The notes under the pieces are model-generated. The model was not told the origin of the DNA, ran no database searches, and worked only from the letters and a program-made list of their open reading frames with translations. From contig NZ_JAECMS010000003.1 in NCBI RefSeq assembly GCF_016827595.1, forward strand, positions 248,001-312,000: a stretch of DNA of 64,000 nucleotides. Reading direction: 5' to 3'. The position numbers were made by a program, and so were the translations under genes. Each line of letters opens with the position of its first letter. The first letter of the stretch is position 1. This DNA is from Luteirhabdus pelagi. GTDB lineage: Bacteria > Bacteroidota > Bacteroidia > Flavobacteriales > Flavobacteriaceae. Shown here one piece after another: positions 1,141-45,895 of this stretch.

Positions 1141-3867
1141 ATGCTTCAAAATAGCCTAAAAGCATTGCAAACTGCCATCCACCGCATACTTTTTTTCTGT
1201 ACGGTCCTGCTTTGGGGCAGCGTAACATTGCACGCACAGGACATTCCACCCAAAAATCAACCTGACTTACCAGCCGAGGAACAAGATTCTATTCCTTCAG
1301 AAGAGGAACCCATCGTGAATATTGCCGTTCAGGATTCGATAAAGAACGATAGCATTCAGCCAAAAAAAGAAATGTTGACTGATGTGGTAGACTATTACGG
1401 TGAAGATTACGTCTATATCGACCGTGAGGCAAAGAAGGTTTACATGTATAACAAAGCCTACGTTATTTATGGCGATATGCGAATTGACGCTGGACTCATC
1501 ATCTTGGATTATAATAAAAATGAAGTCTACGCGAAGGGGATCGATAGCGCCGGAACATATACACAGAAACCAATTTTTGTACAAGCGGCCAATGAGGTTC
1601 GTCCGGATAGTATCCGTTTCAATTTCGATTCCGAAAAGGCATTGGTATACAACTCTAGAACCAATCAGAATAATTTCAACGTTATTGCAGAGGTGACCAA
1701 AAAAGTGAACGATTCCGTTGTCTTCTTACGGAATGTGAAGTTTACCACTTCAAAAAATATCGATGATCCCGAGTATTACTTTTATACACGAAAGGCCAAA
1801 TTTGTACCGAAGAAAAAAATTGTGACAGGGCTTACCAATATGTATATCGCAGATGTACCGACGCCCATCGGATTACCTTTTGCCTATTTTCCGCTTACGG
1901 AAGACCGAACGTCAGGGTTTATAATCCCTACCATCGGTGAACAAAACAGACGTGGATTTTTCTTTCAGAATGGAGGATATTATTTTGCTTTAAGCGATTA
2001 TGTGGATTTAACCGTCTTAGGCGATTATTACACAAATGGTAGTTATGGGTTTAGAGTAGAATCATCCTATGCGCTTCGCTATAAATTTCGGGGAAATTTA
2101 AGTTTCAGGTATGAAAACCTAATCAATAGTGAAAGAGGGTTCCCAGAATTCAGTCAAAGTTCGGTGTATAACTTGCGGTGGAACCACACCCAGGATCAAA
2201 AGGCGAGTCCGAGTTCTCGCTTTTCAGCCTCGGTTAACTTAGGTAGTAGCCGCTATTACCAACAGTCGATTAACCAAACCAATAATGCAAGTGCCTTGGT
2301 GAACACCCTGAGCTCATCGGTTTCCTATTCCAAGACTTTTGAAGGTGAGCCGCAGGTTAATCTCTCAGTTGCTGCCACCCATTCCCAAAACACCAACACA
2401 CAGACCATCAATATGTCGCTGCCCAATTTCAACGGAAGCGTTTCAAGGATTTATCCGTTTGCTCCTGCCAACGGAGCGAAAAAGGGAATCATTCAAAATA
2501 TCAACTTCCAATATGATGTAGCCGCCGAGAATCGTATTCAAACAGTCGATTCATTATTCTTTAAGTCCGAAATGTTCGATAATGCCCAAATTGGCGCACG
2601 ACATACTATTCCTATTAATACGAATTTCAAAATCCTGAACTACATCAGTGCTTCCGCCAATACCCGACTTCAGGAAACATGGACGGCCCGTACTTTTGAA
2701 CGGCGCTACGACCCCAACATCAACGAAGGGTTAGGGGGTGAAGTAATCGACACCATAAACGGTTTCGATCGCTATGCCACGTATAATTTTTCCACTAGTT
2801 TGGGGACAACGATTTATGGAACCTTCAATTTTGGTGAAGACAAAAAAATTCAAGCATTACGGCACGTCGTACGACCCTCCATAAGTTATAATGTAAATCC
2901 TGGGTTTGATCAGTTCTACGATGAATATCGCGTTCCCAATACGGCAGATCCAGCTGTAGATGAGGACATCATCACCTATTCCCGTTTCCAGAATACACTA
3001 TATGGGGCGCCCGGACAGAATTATTCCAGCAGCATCGGGATGGCACTTAGCAATACACTAGAGGCCAAGGTTCGCGATCGCGATACTACTGCTACTGAAC
3101 CAAAGAAAGTGAAACTACTAAATAACTTGAATTTCTCCACCTCTTATAACCTTGCTGGGGATTCGCTTCAATGGAGCCCGCTTAATTTTACCGGTAGTAT
3201 TCCAATTGTAGAGAAACTGGATTTTAACTTCAATGGTCGTTTGGACCCATATGCATTGAATAACAGCAATCAGCGAATTGATGAATTCAACATCAACAAT
3301 GGCGGGAGTTTGTTTCGTTTAACAGGCGCGAATGTTAGTATTAACTATTCCTTCTCGAGCAGGGATTTTGAAGGAGAAGAGGAAACCACCAATCGGCTTG
3401 ATGATGAGACTTTTCGAAACGGTGGACGGCCCGATGATCTTTTCGGCGAGACAACCAATATAAACAGCGGTGCTATTTATGATGAAGATGATGATACCGA
3501 GTCGGTTACCAATAGCGATTGGTATAACTTCGATATTCCATGGGACTTGCGCTTAGCCTATACTATTACGTACTCGAACAATAGGCGCGAAGATGAAATT
3601 TCTTCACAATCCTTGATGTTTAGTAGTAATCTGGAGCTTTCACCGCGCTGGAAAGTAGGTGTTTCCTCTGGATATGACTTTAAGAATAAAGGCGTTACCT
3701 TAACACAGTTCCGGTTTCAACGCGATTTAGAAAGTTGGCAAATGAGTTTCAACTGGACACCTATAGGCAGTATTAACACTTCTTGGTATTTCTTTATCGG
3801 AATTAAATCTTCCGTTCTTAGCGATATCAAATACGATAAGCGACGCGAACCGGATCAACAACTATAA
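1141..3867 (+). CDS. lptD: LPS-assembly outer-membrane protein LptD (OstA family)
   Basis: The product of 908 residues is expected to be the outer-membrane barrel that inserts lipopolysaccharide into the outer leaflet. An N-terminal hydrophobic segment ending near residue 33 (TLHAQ) is a signal peptide. A proline- and acid-rich linker follows, then an OstA/LptA-like beta-jellyroll region (about 85-230, with repeated short beta strands such as KAYVIYGDMRIDAG). The remainder is rich in aromatic-ended beta strands typical of a large barrel. The length is somewhat above that of proteobacterial LptD but usual for Bacteroidota. The function is inferred from fold pattern and overall resemblance. It is divergent from the amidase and followed 25 bases later by ridA. 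Confidence 0.85.
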   Translation: MLQNSLKALQTAIHRILFFCTVLLWGSVTLHAQDIPPKNQPDLPAEEQDSIPSEEEPIVNIAVQDSIKNDSIQPKKEMLTDVVDYYGEDYVYIDREAKKVYMYNKAYVIYGDMRIDAGLIILDYNKNEVYAKGIDSAGTYTQKPIFVQAANEVRPDSIRFNFDSEKALVYNSRTNQNNFNVIAEVTKKVNDSVVFLRNVKFTTSKNIDDPEYYFYTRKAKFVPKKKIVTGLTNMYIADVPTPIGLPFAYFPLTEDRTSGFIIPTIGEQNRRGFFFQNGGYYFALSDYVDLTVLGDYYTNGSYGFRVESSYALRYKFRGNLSFRYENLINSERGFPEFSQSSVYNLRWNHTQDQKASPSSRFSASVNLGSSRYYQQSINQTNNASALVNTLSSSVSYSKTFEGEPQVNLSVAATHSQNTNTQTINMSLPNFNGSVSRIYPFAPANGAKKGIIQNINFQYDVAAENRIQTVDSLFFKSEMFDNAQIGARHTIPINTNFKILNYISASANTRLQETWTARTFERRYDPNINEGLGGEVIDTINGFDRYATYNFSTSLGTTIYGTFNFGEDKKIQALRHVVRPSISYNVNPGFDQFYDEYRVPNTADPAVDEDIITYSRFQNTLYGAPGQNYSSSIGMALSNTLEAKVRDRDTTATEPKKVKLLNNLNFSTSYNLAGDSLQWSPLNFTGSIPIVEKLDFNFNGRLDPYALNNSNQRIDEFNINNGGSLFRLTGANVSINYSFSSRDFEGEEETTNRLDDETFRNGGRPDDLFGETTNINSGAIYDEDDDTESVTNSDWYNFDIPWDLRLAYTITYSNNRREDEISSQSLMFSSNLELSPRWKVGVSSGYDFKNKGVTLTQFRFQRDLESWQMSFNWTPIGSINTSWYFFIGIKSSVLSDIKYDKRREPDQQL

Positions 3868-3892
3868 TGTTTCACAATACAATATTTATATC

Positions 3893-4273
3893 ATGAAAAA
3901 GATTATTCATACTCCCAATGCCCCAGCACCGATAGGACCGTATAATCAAGCCGTACAACTTGGCGATATGCTTTACACTTCTGGGCAGATTGCGATAAAT
4001 CCTGAAACTGGCGAATTGGAACTTGGCGATATCCAGCACGAGACAAAACTCGTAATGGAAAACTTAAAGGCTGTTTTGGCAGCGGCCCATATGGACTTTA
4101 GCCATGTTATTAAGAGTAGCATCTTCGTAAGCGATATGAATAATTTTGCCAGTATCAATGAAGTGTACGGGTCGTATTTTAATGATGAAGAAGCACCTGC
4201 AAGAGAAACCGTGGAAGTCGCCAATTTACCGAAGTTTGTGAACGTTGAAATCTCGATGATCGCTTCGTTATAA
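3893..4273 (+). CDS. ridA: RidA family reactive enamine/imine deaminase
   Basis: This 126-residue protein has the full length of the RidA/YjgF/UK114 family, trimeric cytosolic enzymes that hydrolyse reactive 2-aminoacrylate released by PLP enzymes. The N-terminal APAPIGPYNQAV motif, the central TSGQIAINPETGE motif, the substrate-binding arginine in PARETVEVANLP and the terminal VNVEISMIA are all conserved. It begins 25 bases after lptD and is probably read from the same transcript. Its stop lies 2 bases from the stop of the convergent tamB gene, with no terminator hairpin visible between them. Confidence 0.95.
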   Translation: MKKIIHTPNAPAPIGPYNQAVQLGDMLYTSGQIAINPETGELELGDIQHETKLVMENLKAVLAAAHMDFSHVIKSSIFVSDMNNFASINEVYGSYFNDEEAPARETVEVANLPKFVNVEISMIASL

Positions 4274-4275
4274 GC

Positions 4276-7200
4276 TTAATTTTCTTCTCGTAACGCCTCC
4301 GAATTGAAATCGACCGGAGTGTTTTCATTGTCAGTTGGCGAAACAGGATCGGCTTCACTTTCCAAGGATATTTTCGTACCAAATAGCTTATCGACCAATT
4401 CTTTAAAAGTATCGAAATCGACCGAATATGAAATTCCGGCGCCTTGTTCAAAAATCTGGTCTTCACCGATGAATTGAATGTCTGCTTGACGATTGAAGAA
4501 CTTCATCCGTAAGCTTCCGTCTTCGTTCACCAACCACTGTACTTCAATATCTCCCGCAACAGCGGTTTCACTCACGCCGCCTACTGGAACACCTACTTTA
4601 CCATTGATTAAGATTCGCTCATTGATCCGGGTTGAAAGTGTAACGCCGAACCGGTCTGCCGTTTCCTGATTAGGCGTTCTAATTCCAGTCTGATAATCAA
4701 GTCCTACGGCAAATTTTGAATCTTCGCTAGCAAAAAGTTCATTTACGAGACCCGACACCCGTTCCACCAACGTACCAGTTGCAAAAGCATCGGCCCCAGC
4801 GTAAGTGTCACTGATAAAGTCGCCAGAAGCAATTAGAAACAAGGCTTGCCGTTCGCGTTGGTCTTGATTCTGAAGCTTGTATTCCAATTCACTTTTTACA
4901 ATGGAACTCACCCTTGGGAAGTCGATACGAAAATTTATGTTCGGCTGAATCAATTCTCCTGTAAGGTCCACCAAAACCTCAACCGGAATTTGGCGGTTAA
5001 AGGTTGGGTTGTCTAGCAAAATAGAGGGGTTTGCCTGGGTTTGATATTTCGCAGTAAGATCTAATTGCGCCCGAGCTGGATTTCCATCCCAGTTGATACT
5101 TCCACCAGGAACCACACCAATATTTTTTTGAATGAAACCACCATACCGGAAATCGAAAATCCCTTCAATTACAAGGAAGTCACCCCACATCTTAAACTTT
5201 CCTAAGGTATTGATTTCAATTAATAAGGTCCCCACCCCACTTCCTGTGAGGGTTGAATTATTCTCTTGGTCTACTACCACCTCTACTTCGGCATCTTCCG
5301 TAATGTCCAATTCAAAATTAAGGGTAAGGCCTTTTACATCTTCGGTTTGCACCACCTCACCACTTATACGAGCTTCTTTTTCTTGGGGTGACAAAAAGTA
5401 GATGAAGGAATCGTCTCCAATCGAGGCTACATCGCTTAATGGAATCTTAAAATTGGTATTCTCTGCAGTGGTCGCAATTACATCAATGACAAGCTCATCT
5501 ACAGGACCATCAATTTCCGCGGTTCCGTCGATGAAACCGGTTCCATAATAGAGCGCATCCTCTTCGGGAGGTGTGTCCAATACCAAAAGATAATCCGACC
5601 CTATATCGAGGTCGAGACGCCAATCCTGAAAGTTTTGATGGTATGCCGTTCCAGAGAAAGTACCTTCGGTATCATATTTAGTATCGGTAATTTTGGTCGA
5701 TTCAATAGCGAGGCTATTTTTATTGGCCCTTAAGGTAGTCCCATCCTCCAGCAGATAATCTACATTTAAATAAGGAACTGTAAGTCCAGCCTTTTCCATT
5801 TGAAAGGAGCCATCGATGTCGGGCGATTTATAATTACCCGTAACATCGGCCCTACCACTTATCAATCCTCTAATGTTGGTGATTACTTCACCTCCGAAGG
5901 GACTAAGTGCCTGAAGGTTGAATTCATTTAGCCGAACTCCTAAATCGATTGTTGGGTTTTGGGGAGCAACATCGATTCCGCCTACGGCCGAAATGGAGGT
6001 CACTCCTTCCTTTACCAATTCGGTATTTATTGAATAGGCGGAAAGGTCTTCATTCCCCTTCACTTTAAGATCTAAATCGCCAAATTCGATATCATTGATT
6101 ACGATGTCATCAATAGTAATTTCTGAATTGGGGTAATAAGCACCATTCTTCTGAAGGAAATCGAGGCTTCCATTCATATTTCCATATAAACGAAGACTAT
6201 CCACTTCGGGAGTGATATTCCCAATATTTACATCGGTGAAGCGAAGCCTTAAATCTTTATAGGTAGAATCTCGTAATTCCCCTGCTAAACGGATAAATTC
6301 TTCATTATGATTCAACACCAGAGAATCTATACGAATGGTTTTAAAGTTATCATCGAAAACCACTTTGTTCAAATTGTTGTTTTCTTCATTGATGTACCAC
6401 GTATTATCCTTATACAGAATATCGGATTTTTTGAAGCCCACTACAGATTTCCCCTCCGGATTGATGGTGTGATACAGGGATAGATTATACACATCATTTT
6501 TTTCTTCACCTCCTGCAAATTCAGATCGAACGTATAAGGTATCGTTTAATGTCTTATTGATAACATTCACATCCTTAAGGTTATAGAAACCCGTATATAC
6601 CGAGTCTATATTTATATAGGTGTTGTACAGAGGGTTATCGTTATCTATCTGAATGTTTACTTTACCTAAATAATTATCGTACAACAATAGCTCCGGCGAC
6701 CTGAAATTTAGTTGGAATTTTGATTGATCGGAAGAAACGGATCCTTTTACACGCGTATTTTCCCCAAGCTTCAATTGCGGTACAAATACATCTACGATCT
6801 TGTTATATACTTCGAATTCATAATCGATGTATTGATCGGTTGTGACTTCTTGAGGAATATAATTTGCATAAATAGAACCGATTCCATTTTGAAAAAGGTA
6901 GGGAATATCGCGAATTAGGAATTCACCCCTTATTTCACCCGTAATAATATCAGGAGAATTGATTTCAATGGTACGAACATCGCCTTCAAAAGTGGATGTA
7001 ATTTGAAAATCGTCGAAGAAATAATCCTCACTTGCGGTCTGGTAGAATGTTTCATTAAACGATATGGTTCCTACTGCGTCATCGATAGTCGTTCCGTCCA
7101 TATCTACACGAATTCGTCCCGCAAAGACCGAAACACTATCCCGTTTTATCAAGTTCAGCTGATTTAATTCGGCATACTCCACATCCGCTTCAAAATCGTA

Positions 7201-8664
7201 CTGGTTGAAATCCTTCGAAACATCGACCAATCCTGTAAAATCAAGTTTTAAATTGGGGTCATCTATGCTCAATTCACCATTAAAAACAGGATCCTTCAAT
7301 GTTCCTGATACCTCGATATTAGTATACTTATACCCTTCAAAAGTGAAACTAGAAATGGTACCTTCCAATCGACTGCTCACCGTTTTTTGGGTGAAGCCCC
7401 TTCCATCGACCATCACATCGGCCGTTATGGTTCCGAGGCTTGAAGTGTTTAGCATTTTCCCCAGATTAAACTGCGTCAACACCAATTGACCATCATAGAA
7501 CGCATTGTCGAAGTCTGTGATATTACCAAGATCTAGATCTGCCTTAATTCGTCCAGCGCTTGTTTGGACGATACTATTCGTAGACAATTCAAATGAAGTG
7601 ATTGTACTATTCCCCTGAAAGGAAACGGATCCCAATGGCTTTAGTTCAGCTGGCAACACATCGCCAAGAATCCTGGGCATAAAACGTCGTAAATCGTAAT
7701 AGTCGGTGCGAATGCTATGGTTAGGAGAAGCGATACGGAAGTCCTTTTCAGCATCGAGAAGGTTTTCAAAGGTGAAGTCGCCTGTTAATCGACTATTATC
7801 AAAGGAAATATCAGCATTTTCCAGTTGGAAATCATTAAGTGTGCCCTTAAGATTTCCACTTAATATGATTTCTTGATAGTCGCCAAATTCATTATAAAAA
7901 TTATTGAGATCCTTGGTTGCGACAATGGCATCTTCAAAAGTAGCAGTGATTGTAACATCGTTTTCAAAATCTGCCATTCCCTTTTCCGCATAATCGAAGC
8001 GAAGATTTCCTTGAATATTCGAATTATCCGTTTTCAACACCAAGTCGTTGAAGACCATTGCTTCTGGAGTGTACGAAAAATCGGCTTGTAGATCGGTAAC
8101 GTTCAGTCCGTCGAAACCATCGAGCGAAAGCGATTGAATCTGTGCGGAGATATCGGGACCGAGAATTTCAAAATCCTCCGCCGTTAGGTTCACATCGTGA
8201 AAATCGATTACCTCTGGTTCCGAAAGGTTATAATTTCGAAACCGAACGCGGCCGTTGTTCATCTGAAGATCGTTCCCGATAAGACTAAAGGGTTTGGTAG
8301 GCTCCTGACCGGTATCGAACTTATTCGAAAAAATCGTCAGGTTGTCGGTCTCTTCGCCCTCATAGGTAATCACATTCAGATACGCATCCTGCAATTTAAT
8401 GTCGCCAAAGCCCAAATCGCCATTGATAAGGTTTCTGAAGTTCAGAATATTCGTTTGCAATTCCTGCGAAAAAATAAGCGTATCGTCGCGATGGTCTTTT
8501 ATCAGTACTTTCCGAATATCGACTTCGCCCTTCCAGTTTACCCCTATTTTATCTATGGATATCTGGGTGCCATAGGTTTCATTGAGGTTATCGGTGACCT
8601 TTTTAGCTACATAGGTTTGCACCGCCGGGATAGAAAGCACGATGAACAAAAGTACGATAAGCAA
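4276..8664 (-). CDS. tamB: Translocation and assembly module protein TamB (DUF490), start uncertain
   Basis: At 1462 residues this is a very large protein made of repeated short beta strands, the pattern of TamB/AsmA-like lipid-transfer and outer-membrane assembly factors. An N-terminal membrane anchor (LIVLLFIVLSIPAVQTYVAKK) is followed by a long beta-helical groove, and the C-terminal 450 residues match the TamB domain, including GVGTLLIEINTLGKF and DFRYGGFIQKNIGV. The only usual start codon in frame is TTG at 8664. The frame stays open upstream to a TAA at 8719-8721 and encodes a basic segment, IKKLRNIIVRTIIALL, that would complete a normal signal anchor, but no ATG, GTG or TTG occurs there. 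The true start may therefore be non-canonical or lie upstream of that TTG. No tamA-like gene is visible in the window. Confidence 0.87.
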   Translation of the reverse strand: MLIVLLFIVLSIPAVQTYVAKKVTDNLNETYGTQISIDKIGVNWKGEVDIRKVLIKDHRDDTLIFSQELQTNILNFRNLINGDLGFGDIKLQDAYLNVITYEGEETDNLTIFSNKFDTGQEPTKPFSLIGNDLQMNNGRVRFRNYNLSEPEVIDFHDVNLTAEDFEILGPDISAQIQSLSLDGFDGLNVTDLQADFSYTPEAMVFNDLVLKTDNSNIQGNLRFDYAEKGMADFENDVTITATFEDAIVATKDLNNFYNEFGDYQEIILSGNLKGTLNDFQLENADISFDNSRLTGDFTFENLLDAEKDFRIASPNHSIRTDYYDLRRFMPRILGDVLPAELKPLGSVSFQGNSTITSFELSTNSIVQTSAGRIKADLDLGNITDFDNAFYDGQLVLTQFNLGKMLNTSSLGTITADVMVDGRGFTQKTVSSRLEGTISSFTFEGYKYTNIEVSGTLKDPVFNGELSIDDPNLKLDFTGLVDVSKDFNQYDFEADVEYAELNQLNLIKRDSVSVFAGRIRVDMDGTTIDDAVGTISFNETFYQTASEDYFFDDFQITSTFEGDVRTIEINSPDIITGEIRGEFLIRDIPYLFQNGIGSIYANYIPQEVTTDQYIDYEFEVYNKIVDVFVPQLKLGENTRVKGSVSSDQSKFQLNFRSPELLLYDNYLGKVNIQIDNDNPLYNTYINIDSVYTGFYNLKDVNVINKTLNDTLYVRSEFAGGEEKNDVYNLSLYHTINPEGKSVVGFKKSDILYKDNTWYINEENNNLNKVVFDDNFKTIRIDSLVLNHNEEFIRLAGELRDSTYKDLRLRFTDVNIGNITPEVDSLRLYGNMNGSLDFLQKNGAYYPNSEITIDDIVINDIEFGDLDLKVKGNEDLSAYSINTELVKEGVTSISAVGGIDVAPQNPTIDLGVRLNEFNLQALSPFGGEVITNIRGLISGRADVTGNYKSPDIDGSFQMEKAGLTVPYLNVDYLLEDGTTLRANKNSLAIESTKITDTKYDTEGTFSGTAYHQNFQDWRLDLDIGSDYLLVLDTPPEEDALYYGTGFIDGTAEIDGPVDELVIDVIATTAENTNFKIPLSDVASIGDDSFIYFLSPQEKEARISGEVVQTEDVKGLTLNFELDITEDAEVEVVVDQENNSTLTGSGVGTLLIEINTLGKFKMWGDFLVIEGIFDFRYGGFIQKNIGVVPGGSINWDGNPARAQLDLTAKYQTQANPSILLDNPTFNRQIPVEVLVDLTGELIQPNINFRIDFPRVSSIVKSELEYKLQNQDQRERQALFLIASGDFISDTYAGADAFATGTLVERVSGLVNELFASEDSKFAVGLDYQTGIRTPNQETADRFGVTLSTRINERILINGKVGVPVGGVSETAVAGDIEVQWLVNEDGSLRMKFFNRQADIQFIGEDQIFEQGAGISYSVDFDTFKELVDKLFGTKISLESEADPVSPTDNENTPVDFNSEALREEN

Positions 8665-8762
8665 GAGCAGGGCAATGATCGTACGAACGATTATGTTCCG
8701 AAGTTTTTTGATACGCGCTTAAAGTTTTAATTTTACCCCCAATTATCAGGCCCTTTTTTGCT

Positions 8763-9794
8763 ATGAATTCTAAAGACATTTATATCCTTGGCATCGAGTC
8801 CTCTTGCGACGATACGGCAGCTGCTGTTATTCATAACGGAACCGTACTCTCTAATGTTGTCGCAACCCAGGAAATTCACCAGGAATACGGTGGTGTAGTA
8901 CCCGAACTCGCCTCAAGGGCGCATCAACAAAATATCGTCCCCGTCGTACATCAGGCGTTACACAAAGCAAATATCGATAAAAAACAACTAAGTGCCATAG
9001 CTTTTACGAGGGGTCCGGGACTGATGGGTTCTTTATTGGTAGGCACCTCATTTGCCAAGTCGTTGGCATTTGGATTGGACATCCCTTTAATCGATGTTAA
9101 CCATATGCAGGCGCATATTTTGGCGCATTTTATTAAGGCCGAAGGACAAACAGCACCAAATTTCCCGTTTTTAGCAATGACGATAAGTGGTGGTCATACG
9201 CAAATCGTAAAGGTGACCGATTATTTTGAAATGGAAGTCATAGGTCAAACCTTAGATGATGCTGTTGGTGAAGCCTTCGATAAATCGGCAAAAATTCTAG
9301 GCCTTCCCTATCCCGGGGGTCCTTTAATCGATAAATACGCTCAAGAGGGAAATCCAAAGGCGTTCAAGTTCCCAAAACCCAAGGTTGGGCCGTTAGATTT
9401 CAGTTTTAGTGGTCTGAAGACTTCAGTGTTGTATTTTGTTGAAAAGGAAACAAATCAGAATCCTAGCTTCGTTCAGGAGAATATGAAAGATATCTGCGCC
9501 AGCCTTCAACATACCATCGTTTCCTATTTGATGGACAAGTTGAAAAACGCAGTGAAACAGACTGGAATTACGGAAGTTGCCATCGGAGGCGGTGTTTCGG
9601 CCAATAGCGGTATTCGCAAAGCGTTGCAGCAAGCCCAAACAAACAAAGGCTGGAAAACGCATATTCCTAAATTTGAATATTGTACGGACAATGCCGCGAT
9701 GATTGCTATGGTGGGTGAATTAAAGTTCAAGAACCAACTTTATGCAAAGACAGATGTTACCGCACAAGCACGTATGGAACTCGGAAAATCCTAA
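8763..9794 (+). CDS. tsaD: tRNA N6-adenosine threonylcarbamoyltransferase TsaD
   Basis: The enzyme transfers the threonylcarbamoyl group to A37 of tRNAs that read ANN codons, working with TsaB, TsaE and TsaC, none of which is in this window. The 343-residue length is standard. Diagnostic features are the N-terminal LGIESSCDDTAAAV, the metal-binding histidines of HMQAH (H114 and H118), SGGHTQIV, the nucleotide-binding GEAFDKSAKILGL, and the C-terminal GGGVSANSGIR and CTDNAAMIA motifs. It is divergent from tamB and is followed, 4 bases after its stop, by rsmE, so a small RNA-modification operon is likely. Confidence 0.97.
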   Translation: MNSKDIYILGIESSCDDTAAAVIHNGTVLSNVVATQEIHQEYGGVVPELASRAHQQNIVPVVHQALHKANIDKKQLSAIAFTRGPGLMGSLLVGTSFAKSLAFGLDIPLIDVNHMQAHILAHFIKAEGQTAPNFPFLAMTISGGHTQIVKVTDYFEMEVIGQTLDDAVGEAFDKSAKILGLPYPGGPLIDKYAQEGNPKAFKFPKPKVGPLDFSFSGLKTSVLYFVEKETNQNPSFVQENMKDICASLQHTIVSYLMDKLKNAVKQTGITEVAIGGGVSANSGIRKALQQAQTNKGWKTHIPKFEYCTDNAAMIAMVGELKFKNQLYAKTDVTAQARMELGKS

Positions 9795-9798
9795 GCAC

Positions 9799-10506
9799 AT
9801 GAATCTTTTCTACCATCCTTCCATTTTACCAAACGATACCTCGGTGTCTTTCGACAAGGATGAAAGTCGACATATCGCTAAGGTATTGCGCAAACAAATT
9901 GGTGATATGCTTCATGTAACCGATGGCAAGGGCCATTTTTATAAAGTTGAATTGAGCAGTACCCATCAGAAGAAATGTGAAGCGGTGGTGAAAAAGGTCG
10001 AAAAGCAGGAGCCACTACCCTATCGACTTCATATGGCGGTGGCGCCTACCAAAACGAATGATCGTTTCGAAACCTTCTTGGAAAAAGCAACTGAAATCGG
10101 CATTACGGAAATTACGCCAATCCTTTGTGACCATAGCGAACGCACCAATGTGAAACCCGATCGCTACGAACGAATATTGGTCAGTGCCATGAAACAATCG
10201 CTAAAAGCATATTTACCGACCCTGCACCCTACTATGTCATTTAAGGATTTCTTAAATCAAGATCTTAATGCTTCAGTAAAAGGAATTGCGCATTGTGAAC
10301 AGGGCGAAAAGAAAAAATTGAAGGAAATCGTATCACCGGTAGCGGATGTCTTGTTGTTGGTTGGACCCGAAGGCGACTTTTCTTCCGAAGAAATTCAACT
10401 AGCTCAAGCGAAAGGGTTTTTGCCCATCACGTTGGGGAATACGCGTCTACGTACCGAAACAGCAGCGATTGTGGCCTGTCATAGCATTGCTTTTCTTAAT
10501 CTATAA
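9799..10506 (+). CDS. rsmE: 16S rRNA (uracil-1498 N3)-methyltransferase RsmE
   Basis: This 235-residue SPOUT-class methyltransferase methylates U1498 of 16S rRNA. The N-terminal PUA-like part (HPSILPNDTSVSFDKDESRH) and the C-terminal knotted SAM site are clear: LLVGPEGDFSSEEI followed by LGNTRLRTETAAI. I chose ATG at 9799 because the conserved N-terminus starts there (MNLFYHP). An upstream in-frame ATG inside tsaD would only add unrelated residues. It follows tsaD by 4 bases. Confidence 0.95.
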   Translation: MNLFYHPSILPNDTSVSFDKDESRHIAKVLRKQIGDMLHVTDGKGHFYKVELSSTHQKKCEAVVKKVEKQEPLPYRLHMAVAPTKTNDRFETFLEKATEIGITEITPILCDHSERTNVKPDRYERILVSAMKQSLKAYLPTLHPTMSFKDFLNQDLNASVKGIAHCEQGEKKKLKEIVSPVADVLLLVGPEGDFSSEEIQLAQAKGFLPITLGNTRLRTETAAIVACHSIAFLNL

Positions 10507-10648
10507 TGAAATGAACAAAACTGGTATTCATTTTGTTTCTTCTTCATTGTAAAAACGCATAATTTATAAGTGTATTACAAAGGATGTTCCCTGTAAATAA
10601 TAGCAACAGTTAGAAATTCCTTGCACCAAGAATGCTTATTTTTGATAT

Positions 10649-11293
10649 ATGAAATACCTTTTTTTCCTATTCTTGACACTCTTTTTTCTTACTACATCCA
10701 ATGGCCAAGAAATCGCAGTCTTGAAGTATGGTGGCGGTGGCGATTGGTACAGTAACCCTACGGCGCTTCCTAATTTAGCACGGTTTTGTAACGAGACTAT
10801 CGGAACGGCTTTAAAGGCAGACACCCAAACAGTTTCTCCGGGCAGCATCGATCTTTTCGATTATCCATTTGTACATATGACAGGTCATGGAAATGTATTT
10901 TTTACTGCAGAAGAGGCCGAAAACCTTCGTACCTATCTTTTGAGTGGCGGGTTTCTTCATATTGACGATAACTATGGAATGGACCAGTACATTCGAGAGG
11001 AGCTGAAAAAAGTTTTCCCGAACACTGAATTACGGGAATTACCGGCTTCGCATCCGATATTCAATCAGCATTTTGATTTCCCTGATGGCTTACCCAAGAT
11101 TCACGAACACGATCGCGGTCGTCCACAAGCCTTTGGCATCGAACATGAAGGAAGGTTGGTGCTTTTGTACACGTTCGAAAGCGATTTGGGTGATGGCTGG
11201 GAAAACCCTGAAATTCACAACGACCCGGAAGAGGTTCGAAGAATGGCGCTTCAAATGGGAGCCAATATTGTGGGCTACGTATTTCAAAACTAA
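10649..11293 (+). CDS. DUF4159 domain secreted protein
   Basis: The protein has 214 residues with a signal peptide (about residues 1-19, ending TTSNGQ). It matches the DUF4159 family, whose fold resembles glutamine amidotransferases or a Rossmann-like flavodoxin fold, but whose function is not established. Visible signatures are KYGGGGDWYSNPTALPNL, the VHMTGHGNVFF segment, GGFLHIDDNYG and the SHPIF motif. Its stop overlaps the start of the SpoU gene (TAATG), so the two are translationally coupled. A TATTTTTG element at 10637-10644 resembles a promoter but lies only 4 bases before the ATG, too close for a normal leader. Confidence 0.85.
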   Translation: MKYLFFLFLTLFFLTTSNGQEIAVLKYGGGGDWYSNPTALPNLARFCNETIGTALKADTQTVSPGSIDLFDYPFVHMTGHGNVFFTAEEAENLRTYLLSGGFLHIDDNYGMDQYIREELKKVFPNTELRELPASHPIFNQHFDFPDGLPKIHEHDRGRPQAFGIEHEGRLVLLYTFESDLGDGWENPEIHNDPEEVRRMALQMGANIVGYVFQN

Positions 11294-42910: not shown

Positions 42911-43447
42911 TTAGGTGTATTTCGGAATTTTTCCTACCACCGATTCATAACATGTTCGAATTCGGTTTAGATCGGTATTCATATCTCCTGAAGGATAATA
43001 AGGTGCATGAATCGTAACCAATTTCTTGCCATAATCAAAGGAAACTGAATAAATGGGCACTTCAGCAGCAAGCGCAATATAATAGAATCCGGTTTTCCAT
43101 TGTTGCACTTTTTTACGCGTGCCCTCAGGGGCCAATGCCAATCGAAATTCGTCCTTTTCAGCAAACAATTTTGCAATTGCCTCTACTTTGTTTTGTCCCG
43201 GAGTACGATCTAAGGGCGATCCGCCCATCCATCGGAAATACCATCCGAAAGGAAATCGGAACAATTCCTTTTTAGCGATAAAGTGAATTTCTGTTTTTGA
43301 GATGTTTCTCGCAAATGCACCGATGTAAAAGTCATGCCAGCTTGTATGTGGTGCTACAATAACGACTGCTTTCTTTATAGCAGGATTGAAGGTGCCTTCC
43401 ATTTTCCACCCCAATACGTTATTGAAAATCCATTTGATAAACCCCAT
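42911..43447 (-). CDS. PlsC-type 1-acylglycerol-3-phosphate acyltransferase-like protein
   Basis: The 178-residue protein is a short LPLAT-family acyltransferase. Motif I, H-x4-D, is APHTSWHDFYIGA; motif III is LALAPEGTRKKVQQWKTGFY, with the EGTR loop. It lacks extended membrane segments, which is common in this small subgroup. The acyl acceptor cannot be told. Its ATG overlaps the stop of the KdsB-KdnB fusion by one base, so it is coupled to a lipid A core-sugar gene, which makes an envelope-lipid role plausible. Confidence 0.87.
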   Translation of the reverse strand: MGFIKWIFNNVLGWKMEGTFNPAIKKAVVIVAPHTSWHDFYIGAFARNISKTEIHFIAKKELFRFPFGWYFRWMGGSPLDRTPGQNKVEAIAKLFAEKDEFRLALAPEGTRKKVQQWKTGFYYIALAAEVPIYSVSFDYGKKLVTIHAPYYPSGDMNTDLNRIRTCYESVVGKIPKYT

Positions 43448-45276
43448 TACATTTTCCTGTAAAGCGTGTACAATGTCTCGCGATCGATTTTAGTCTCCCA
43501 ATCCTCGCCCAGTGCATTCTCCCATAACGGAGTTAATCCCAACGCAATGTCAATCATGGTATTGATTTCAGTTTCAGAACAGTCTGCACAAACACCTGAA
43601 GGAATATCGATACGGTGTTTTTTAACCATTTCCTTGAAAAGGGAAACATCTTTTGGGTAGTAGTCTTCAAGCTGGTTGAAAACAATACAATTTCCGATTC
43701 CATGCTTCGTTCCCAGTACGTAAGACAATCCATAGCTCATGGCATGTGCTACTCCAACCTGTGAATAGGCAATACTCATTCCGCCATGCCAAGAAGCCAT
43801 CATCAGTTTCGCCCTTGCTTCTGTTTTAGAAAGTTTTGTATCGTTGAAGATCTCTAAGCATAATTCGTAGGCCTTTTCACCATAACTCTCACTAAAAGCA
43901 TTTAAGAAAGTGCCGTTAAGCGATTCCACGCAGTGGATAAAACAATCCATTCCGGTATAAAACCATTGATTATTTGGGACGGTTTCTGTAAGATCTGGAT
44001 CGAGTATAACTTGGTCGAAGGGCGTATAATCGCTATTAATCCCGAGTTTTCGAACGGGACCTGTTAGGACGGCAGTCCGTGAAACTTCAGCGCCGGTTCC
44101 GGAAATAGTAGGCACTCCAACATGATATACGGCTTTTTTATAGACCAAATCCCAGCCTTGATAATCGGCGGCTTTTCCTGGATTTGTTAGCAAGATCGAA
44201 GTAGCTTTGGCAAGGTCTAAGATCGTTCCGCCACCAATTCCAATAACACCAGATACGCCTTTTTCAAACATTTCCTTAATTTGAGACACCAAGGCATCGA
44301 CTTGTTTTGTCTTTGGCTCTTCTTCAGAAGAAACAAAAATGAGTAGGTCGCTTTCATGTGAGGGAACGCGTGTGGTGAACTCTGCATTGTTTTCAAATAC
44401 ATCATCCACTAAAAAAACAAATGGTTTTTCATGCTTTCGTTTCTCGGCTAAGATAGTGCCCAATTGGTTGAAGCTCCCAGCACCAAAAACCACCTTTGGC
44501 ACCATAGGAAAGTTCTTAAACAGTTTTTTCTTATCGCTACCCTCCCCTTCTTGCAAAAGCTTATTTGCCTTCACCAAATCCTCTGGCGTATCAATCTCAA
44601 CGCTCTGCTCGGTAGTAACGGCCATTTTAATATTCTTTCCATATTCCAGATAGCGTAAACACTCAATTTTCTCGGCTGCTTCCAGTTCCCGCATCGGTAA
44701 CCGATAGAAATCCATTAAGGCATCTTTTCGGAAAGCATAAATACCCTTGTGCTTGTAATATTGTGTATTCGTCTTTTTGTCTCTAGGATATGGGATGGGA
44801 GATCGGGAAAAGTAAAGGGCAAACCGATTTTGATCTACAATCACTTTTACCGTATTGGGATCGCTAATTTCCTTCCAATCGTGAATGGGCGTCATTAAAG
44901 AGGCAAGGTCTATTTTTTCGGCATCTGACTCTTTAAATACTTGAAGGACTTTTTCCAAACCTGCTTTACTGGTAAAGGGTTCATCTCCTTGTACATTTAC
45001 TACGATATCGATGTCCATGTCCGCTACCGCTTCAGCAATACGATCGCTCCCACATTCGTGTTCCTTTTCACTCATAATGGCCTTCCCGCCTTTAGCTTCA
45101 ATTTCATTAAAGATAATATCGCTATCGGTAACAACATATACCGCATCGAATAGTTGGGTGTTCACAGCTGCTTCATACGTTCGAACGATCACGGGTTTTC
45201 CACCCAAATCCTGCATTAGTTTTCCTGGAAATCGAGAAGCCCCATATCGGGCGGGAATCATGGCTATTATTTTCAA
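43447..45276 (-). CDS. Fusion of CMP-Kdo synthetase (KdsB) and Kdo 8-oxidase (KdnB)
   Basis: One continuous frame of 609 residues holds two enzymes. Residues 1-241 are a full KdsB cytidylyltransferase: [49 protein letters not shown] and [11 protein letters not shown]. Residues about 252-609 are a full iron/zinc alcohol dehydrogenase closely resembling Shewanella Kdn[47 protein letters not shown] and metal ligands in [11 protein letters not shown] and GTKHGIGNC. KdnB oxidises C8 of Kdo so that KdnA can aminate it to 8-amino-Kdo, which a KdsB then activates. The fused protein thus combines a first and a last step. The linker is only about ten residues. The start is TTG at 45276. A KdnA gene is not in the window. 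Confidence 0.9.
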
Positions 45277-45316: not shown

Positions 45317-45895
45317 TTAGCGAGCTGACGGACGCTTTTTGCGAAGCTTTTTATAAAATCGAATAATGATCAACAAAAGTATCAAAGCCATTGCGGAAGC
45401 CAAGATGGGAACGAATACTGAAGCTGCAGAGAGAATAGTGGCAGTGCCTGTTTCGACCGTTGATACGATAGGATTACCAACACCTCCAGTAGTGGCGGTA
45501 CTTCCAGCCCTCACTACGGCCGCATTTCCTTTTACTATTGCTGCGGTCCCCCCTCCCGCAATGATTGCTAAAATCCATGTTAATGCCGGATCTACATCGC
45601 TAATAGTCGCCACCATAATAATAGTTCCTGCTAAGGTCGCCATGGGAAGGGCGATAGTATCCAGTAAATTATCGACCCAAGGAATATAGAAAGCTGCTGT
45701 TTCCACTATTGCCGCCACGCCAAAAGTGAGAATGGCTGTTAGGCTTCCAAGCCAGGCCCAGGAATCATTCAAGGCGATAAAATCGAAGTTGGCCGCCAGG
45801 CTCATGGCTAGCAATGGGAGAAAGATACGAAAGCCGGCTGCTGTAGCTAAGCCGACTCCTAAACAGATACTTACCAATGTAGTAGTTACCTCCAA
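45317..45895 (-). CDS. DUF4126 membrane protein
   Basis: The 192-residue protein has five or so hydrophobic helices rich in glycine and alanine. Typical family segments are CLGVGLATAAGFRIFLPLLA at the N-terminus, AAIVETAAFYIPWVDNLLD in the middle, and the AGGGTAAIVKGNAAVVRAG motif; the C-terminus is very basic (KLRKKRPSAR). Function is unknown. It lies 7 bases after the RecD-like helicase and 40 bases before the KdsB-KdnB gene on the same strand. The start is TTG at 45895. Confidence 0.85.
   Translation of the reverse strand: MEVTTTLVSICLGVGLATAAGFRIFLPLLAMSLAANFDFIALNDSWAWLGSLTAILTFGVAAIVETAAFYIPWVDNLLDTIALPMATLAGTIIMVATISDVDPALTWILAIIAGGGTAAIVKGNAAVVRAGSTATTGGVGNPIVSTVETGTATILSAASVFVPILASAMALILLLIIIRFYKKLRKKRPSAR

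Follow-up and report, generated by a model that had tools for sequence, protein, structure and literature searches.

A kdsB-kdnB fusion gene in Luteirhabdus pelagi and a candidate Kdo8N-selecting residue in KdsB

The fusion gene and its genomic setting

The window, a stretch of 64,000 nucleotides from the genome of Luteirhabdus pelagi (Flavobacteriaceae), carries on its minus strand a gene in which the CMP-Kdo synthetase KdsB continues into the Kdo 8-oxidase KdnB. The frame, 609 amino acids long, is uninterrupted from 43447 to 45276, and its stop overlaps the start of a short acyltransferase gene in the motif TAATG. The features of the locus, with the basis of their assignment, are listed below.

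43447..45276, minus strand: kdsB-kdnB fusion gene, 609 codons, TTG start (open reading frame; Pfam, NCBIfam and PDB matches)
44548..45276, minus strand: KdsB (cytidylyltransferase) domain, residues 1-243 (Pfam, NCBIfam and PDB matches)
44524..44547, minus strand: linker, residues 244-251, variable among fused homologues
43450..44523, minus strand: KdnB domain (Kdo 8-oxidase, iron-type alcohol dehydrogenase), residues 252-609 (Pfam and PDB matches)
44596..44598, minus strand: codon of Glu227, candidate Kdo8N-selecting residue, corresponding to Gly233 of E. coli KdsB (residue comparisons)
44590..44592, minus strand: codon of Asp229, metal-binding by alignment with D219 of Aquifex KdsB
43702..43947, minus strand: span with Asp444, His448, His511 and His525 of the oxidase domain (30 fused homologues)
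42911..43447, minus strand: short acyltransferase gene (PF01553), downstream, its start overlapping the fusion stop
45317..45895, minus strand: DUF4126 membrane protein gene, upstream, in relatives often adjoining kdsB

Pfam places CTP_transf_3 at residues 4-216 and Fe-ADH at residues 261-427 and 440-542. The NCBIfam KdsB models span residues 1-243, and the score to TIGR00466, 191.8 bits, exceeds that model's cut-off of 155.2. Compared with the PDB, residues 2-242 match CMP-Kdo synthetases, with E. coli KdsB, KpsU and Aquifex KdsB aligned over the full length of the domain; residues 252-608 match KdnB (3rf7, 435.8 bits; 5k8c, 435.6 bits), and the next iron-type alcohol dehydrogenase reaches 89.2 bits. 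The KdsB domain scores above the cut-off of the curated KdsB model, retains the residues for metal and CTP, and shares Arg10, Arg15, Lys19, Gln96, Asp98 and Asp229 with E. coli KdsB. It differs from the five solved KdsB chains in the alignment by its C-terminal fusion and by Glu227, a position at which all five have Gly. In the oxidase domain, Asp444, His448, His511 and His525, which we take to be the expected metal ligands (an Asp and three His), do not vary among 30 fused homologues and are the same in the alignments with Shewanella. A preliminary description of this DNA had proposed a complete KdsB joined through about ten residues to a complete KdnB-type oxidase. Its reading stands: the linker measures about 8-10 residues, and chance cannot account for two full-length domains that both exceed the cut-offs of their families within a single conserved frame. 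An AlphaFold model of the fusion, built from 30 sequences, was too poor for statements on domain packing (mean pLDDT 71.2, residues ~111-260 mostly below 50).

The fusion had also been described as coupled to the acyltransferase. While the overlap is real, its specificity to the fused step did not hold up: the acyltransferase gene adjoins kdsB in 6 of 11 stretches from KdnB-less genomes (G021, G250, G286, G249, G077 and G059). As the gene so often lies beside kdsB without KdnB, the overlap is a poor guide to the Kdo8N pathway.

Nearly all Gram-negative bacteria use Kdo to join lipid A with the core. In Shewanella oneidensis, the pathway to its derivative 8-amino-Kdo (Kdo8N) reportedly consists of KdnB, KdnA and KdsB. 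Does the window's genome encode the same set? The assembly, of 57 contigs and 99.92% complete, contains one full KdsB match and one KdnB match, both of which are the fusion, and no second KdsB or KdnB was found in it. A search for kdnA, suggested by the preliminary description together with one for a second stand-alone kdsB, identified an orthologue of the DegT family (L006; 477.5 bits to S. oneidensis KdnA, 5k8b, and 179 to the next solved relative). This kdnA lies on a different contig from the fusion, among neighbours without a recognised tie to LPS. The other two CTP_transf_3 genes of the genome were rejected as a second KdsB: one is NeuA-like and the other SpsF-like beside a NeuB-like synthase, labels we assign by similarity, and both sit in nonulosonate-type neighbourhoods. 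The genome gives one WaaA-type match, and two KdsC-type matches exceed the cut-off, of which one lies close to the SpsF-like gene. A single KdsB together with KdnA fits an obligate Kdo8N route, and the organism may make little or no CMP-Kdo.

KdnB and KdnA of S. oneidensis are 54.9% and 51.5% identical to the proteins of the window's genome and belong to the same oxidase and aminotransferase families. Unlike in Shewanella, a gammaproteobacterium, kdsB and kdnB form one gene in this member of the Bacteroidota, and kdnA lies elsewhere. The comparison with Shewanella covers KdnB and KdnA, whereas the correlation of residue 227 with KdnB presented below concerns KdsBs of Bacteroidota. Kdo8N is placed in Shewanella in excerpts of PMC3210612 and PMC4052302 and is called a hallmark of Shewanella in an excerpt of PMC6357163. 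Excerpts from an open-licence collection that does not include the main papers on the Kdo8N enzymes contain no report of Kdo8N in Flavobacteriaceae or of a kdsB-kdnB fusion.

Distribution and history of the fusion

How widespread is the fused gene? We examined a family sample of 397 genomes, a phylum sample of 392 genomes and, separately, the best 80 KdnB loci from genome contigs, a set that shares organisms with the family sample. End-to-end matches without a stop occur in 38 of the 397 family genomes; 35 of them cover residues 1-609, and the other three cover 1-608 (G042), 2-609 (G350) and 1-607 (G177). A genome of the same genus carries the frame at 97% identity. No stop or frameshift thus separates the domains, a point on which the preliminary description had staked its reading, and a frame shared by 38 family genomes rules out sequencing error as the source of the fusion. 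In the phylum sample, only two genomes have an unbroken match: that of the window and G042, which belongs to the same family. KdnB is present in 256 family genomes, of which 218 are not among the unbroken matches (one, G202, is cut by a contig end); in G146 and G253, kdsB and kdnB are adjacent with stops between them.

Of the best 80 KdnB loci, 36 carry the fused gene and 4 carry kdsB and kdnB as separate neighbours; in the remaining 40 a HAD gene intervenes, accompanied in 11 cases by a CAT-like gene. The fused loci belong to Aequorivita, Altibacter, Ulvibacter, Gilvibacter, Aquimarina, Mesonia, one Flavobacterium and other relatives. Frame values of 838-890 amino acids hinted at larger fusions; seven of these were read directly and have KdnB frames of 360-378 amino acids, and the larger values were therefore set aside.

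A search of plasmids for KdnB gave no match. Three viral contigs (L113, L114 and L115) carry a KdnB-like gene (38-40% identity) beside a DegT-type aminotransferase (28-29% to KdnA). On L114, at 2483-11056, a terminase lies near the KdnB-like gene and a cytidylyltransferase-like gene farther on, a gene set that looks as if it served a phage-borne amino-ulosonate sugar.

Where did the fusion come from? The order kdnA-kdsB-kdnB is found in G581 and G747 (f33), in G697 (f8), and in G253 and G146 of the window's family; the matched stretches of kdsB and kdnB there lie 10-27 bases apart. These operons encode the same three families as the window's genome, including a KdsB with Glu227, but as three separate genes in a row, in contrast to the single kdsB-kdnB gene and distant kdnA of L. 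pelagi. In a tree rooted on f33 (in which G536 and G635 are labelled adjacent despite ~3 kb between the genes), the genomes with this operon are basal. Above them the family divides in two: in one clade kdsB and kdnB are separated by a further gene (support 91, not starred), and its sister clade holds all 40 fused and four adjacent rows (support 94, not starred). The unrooted tree recovers the same two clades with a starred support of 99. L039 and L090, whose KdsB is partial, were excluded from trees and residue counts.

The fewest changes amount to one fusion and one split; several fusions are also possible, since the linkers of Aquimarina and Mesonia differ from those of the remaining rows. 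KdnB starts with M(S/A)VNNEYRNFPMVP in the four unfused rows, and the linker of many fused rows is VNNKYRNFPMVP or near it. The resemblance indicates that the fused protein retains the old start region of KdnB. A route to fusion by loss of the intervening HAD gene was ruled out, as adjacency is basal in the rooted tree. That gene encodes a conserved hydrolase of ~233 amino acids (L037:9236-9934 and relatives) which separates kdsB from kdnB in the unfused sister clade and was not found near the fused genes. Of the 38 fused genomes, 20 encode a HAD homologue (E<=1e-20) at some locus; in the other 18, that of the window included, none was found.

The preliminary description had read the fusion as a sign of a channelled pathway. 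The evidence does not support this point. KdnB would take the first step and KdsB the third, which means that nothing could pass straight from one fused domain to the other unless KdnA intervened, and ancestral adjacency of the two genes suffices to explain why they fused. Could the fused domains instead recruit KdnA into an assembly, in which the 8-aldehyde passes to KdnA and Kdo8N on to KdsB? KdnB yields an aldehyde that would benefit from rapid consumption, and the fusion has been retained through a whole clade of 40 fused rows. Yet the joined steps are not consecutive, kdnA of the window's genome sits on another contig, many relatives retain separate proteins, and four rows within the fused clade itself are unfused. 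Nor does any KdnA orthologue flank the best 80 KdnB loci, where only three DegT relatives of 28-33% identity occur. We regard such an assembly as improbable. The simplest account is a fusion, neutral or favoured by co-dosage, that arose from a compact operon for a pathway ending in CMP-Kdo8N.

KdnA, KdnB and residue 227 of KdsB

The two enzymes that distinguish the Kdo8N pathway occur together. Taking a best E below ~1e-130 as presence of KdnB (no genome falls between 1e-125 and 1e-143) and E<=1e-100 as presence of KdnA, 249 of the 397 family genomes have both, 7 KdnB only, 4 KdnA only and 137 neither; the genomes are related, and these counts are not independent events. Ten of the 11 discordant genomes are less than 90% complete, the exception being G245. 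KdnA is found in 37 of the 38 fused genomes and is missing from G292, which is 76% complete. On these counts, the Kdo8N pathway is predicted in roughly two thirds of the genomes sampled from the family.

Does KdsB itself bear a mark of the pathway? When KdsBs from KdnB-bearing and KdnB-less genomes were compared, column 227 stood out, Glu in the window and Gly233 in E. coli. Genomes with a window-type KdnB (at least 57% identity to that of the window) have Glu227 in 92 of 92 KdsBs, the window being one of the 92. Glu was then predicted beforehand for 12 further KdnB-bearing genomes and is present in all 12; two of these (G339 and G001) are re-readings of L063 and L072, and the 10 new ones bring the total to 102 of 102. 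The 129 KdsBs from KdnB-less genomes have Gly (96), Ala (13), Glu (8), Ser (8), Pro (3) or Asn (1), absence of KdnB being judged from best E-values, so that some may possess a distant KdnB-like protein; G154 enters both sets, as L119 in the 129 and as L187 in the genomes with divergent KdnB. With the latter genomes placed in the group without KdnB, the frequency overlap at column 227 is 0.058, the lowest of all KdsB columns, followed by 0.209.

Within genera g131, g154 and g146 the residue changes in the expected direction. Glu227 of G131 contrasts with Gly in G319, which lacks KdnB, and Glu227 of G335 with Gly in G154, which has a 46% KdnB relative and no KdnA; both outcomes were predicted beforehand. 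A third contrast, Glu227 in G146 and Gly in its genus-mate G329, was known beforehand. All that is left of kdnB in G329 is a pair of short fragments, corresponding to query residues 8-61 and 321-340, close to the Gly227 kdsB (L300, G329:C16, ~4927-5188), and G146 has an intact kdnA-kdsB-kdnB row. In a tree built without column 227, well-supported branches offer 5 contrasts, of which a mean of 4.8 agree and none opposes (median p 0.0625). Residue 227 also differs within g76 (G286 and G076) and g21 (G249 and G020), where no member read has KdnB.

Asp229 aligns with D219 of 2y6p, which we take to be Aquifex KdsB, and Glu227 lies two residues before it. In an excerpt of PMC3149649, D219 and D95 of 2y6p hold Mg-A. 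We propose that Glu227, perhaps by facing the C8 amino group, helps to select Kdo8N, and that the KdsB half of the fusion is tuned to the amino sugar. Two other columns differ between the groups: column 142 (Thr, Cys or Tyr with KdnB, Asn or Val without) and column 177 (Lys with KdnB, Ile without). The latter was dropped as a second specificity residue, as it did not follow KdnB in independent pairs.

Alternatively, Glu227 could be a mere mark of common descent, belonging to one KdsB type that accompanies kdnA and kdnB but without influence on the choice of sugar. Independent contrasts are few, the five on starred branches, and the residue and the pathway come apart in both directions. Eight KdnB-less genomes keep Glu227 (G117, G021, G250, G196, G363, G286, G249 and G546); the 10-12 kb read on either side of and around their kdsB showed no KdnB, and there was no KdnA (E<=1e-100) in the seven of them present in the family sample. 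Conversely, genomes with a more distant kdnA-kdnB pair (G744, G631, G532 and G482) have Ser, Cys or Thr at position 227 in the KdsBs read; a search of the fifth such genome, G575, gave no KdsB at E<=1e-30. Their proteins are 51-55% (KdnB) and 48-50% (KdnA) identical to those of S. oneidensis; the window-type proteins are 53-57% and 52-58% identical. Two Shewanella KdnBs group with this distant set (L188-L192), their nearest neighbours in the tree, with support of 82, not starred. If the distant pairs make Kdo8N, Glu227 is not required in every KdsB. In G555 and G531, with KdnB relatives of ~41%, the KdsBs read also lack Glu227. Against mere descent stand the lowest overlap of any KdsB column, the position two residues from the metal-binding Asp and the concordant changes within three genera. 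Descent alone is a serious possibility, though one we hold to be the less probable reading.

A diverged KdnB relative occupies the locus of G154, in the order kdsB, HAD, kdnB-like, acyltransferase (L284, 6646-7719). Its KdsB has Gly227, no KdnA was found in this genome at E<=1e-100, and the KdnB relative may have a new substrate. Such a locus can evidently change its role. Might the KdnB domain of the window likewise act on another substrate, with KdsB still making ordinary CMP-Kdo and the fusion a neutral leftover? Iron-type alcohol dehydrogenases act on many alcohols, and the eight KdnB-less genomes suggest that a Glu-type KdsB may still accept Kdo. But the window's KdnB is 55% identical to that of S. 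oneidensis, its expected metal ligands are invariant in the fused homologues, and KdnB tightly co-occurs with KdnA. We therefore consider another substrate very unlikely.

A proposed pathway and its implications

Taken together, we think it likely that the fusion is a two-domain enzyme of the Kdo8N pathway with a KdsB marked by Glu227, born of a kdnA-kdsB-kdnB operon and serving co-dosage, not channelling. The C-terminal KdnB domain would oxidise C8 of Kdo, the separate KdnA would transaminate the product to Kdo8N, and the N-terminal KdsB domain would make CMP-Kdo8N for use by WaaA. The Glu227 form of KdsB would favour a sugar with an 8-ammonium group. In the older operon, the adjacent kdsB and kdnB would have fused either in a single event followed by one split or in a few separate events. 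The effect of the fusion is probably an equal dosage of the oxidase and the activating enzyme, with no direct channelling.

A broader proposition has, in our estimate, not quite an even chance of being correct: that a change from Gly to Glu before the metal-binding Asp makes a CMP-Kdo8N synthetase, that Kdo8N is a common core sugar in marine Flavobacteriaceae, and that in one clade the fusion ties activation to the amino pathway. Residue 227 provides a cheap sequence test for candidate Kdo8N-activating KdsBs of this lineage and an obvious position to mutate. An amino group at C8 of Kdo would place a positive charge at the junction of lipid A and core. If Kdo8N is common in marine Flavobacteriaceae, the published core structures of the family and its Kdo assays would need to be re-read.
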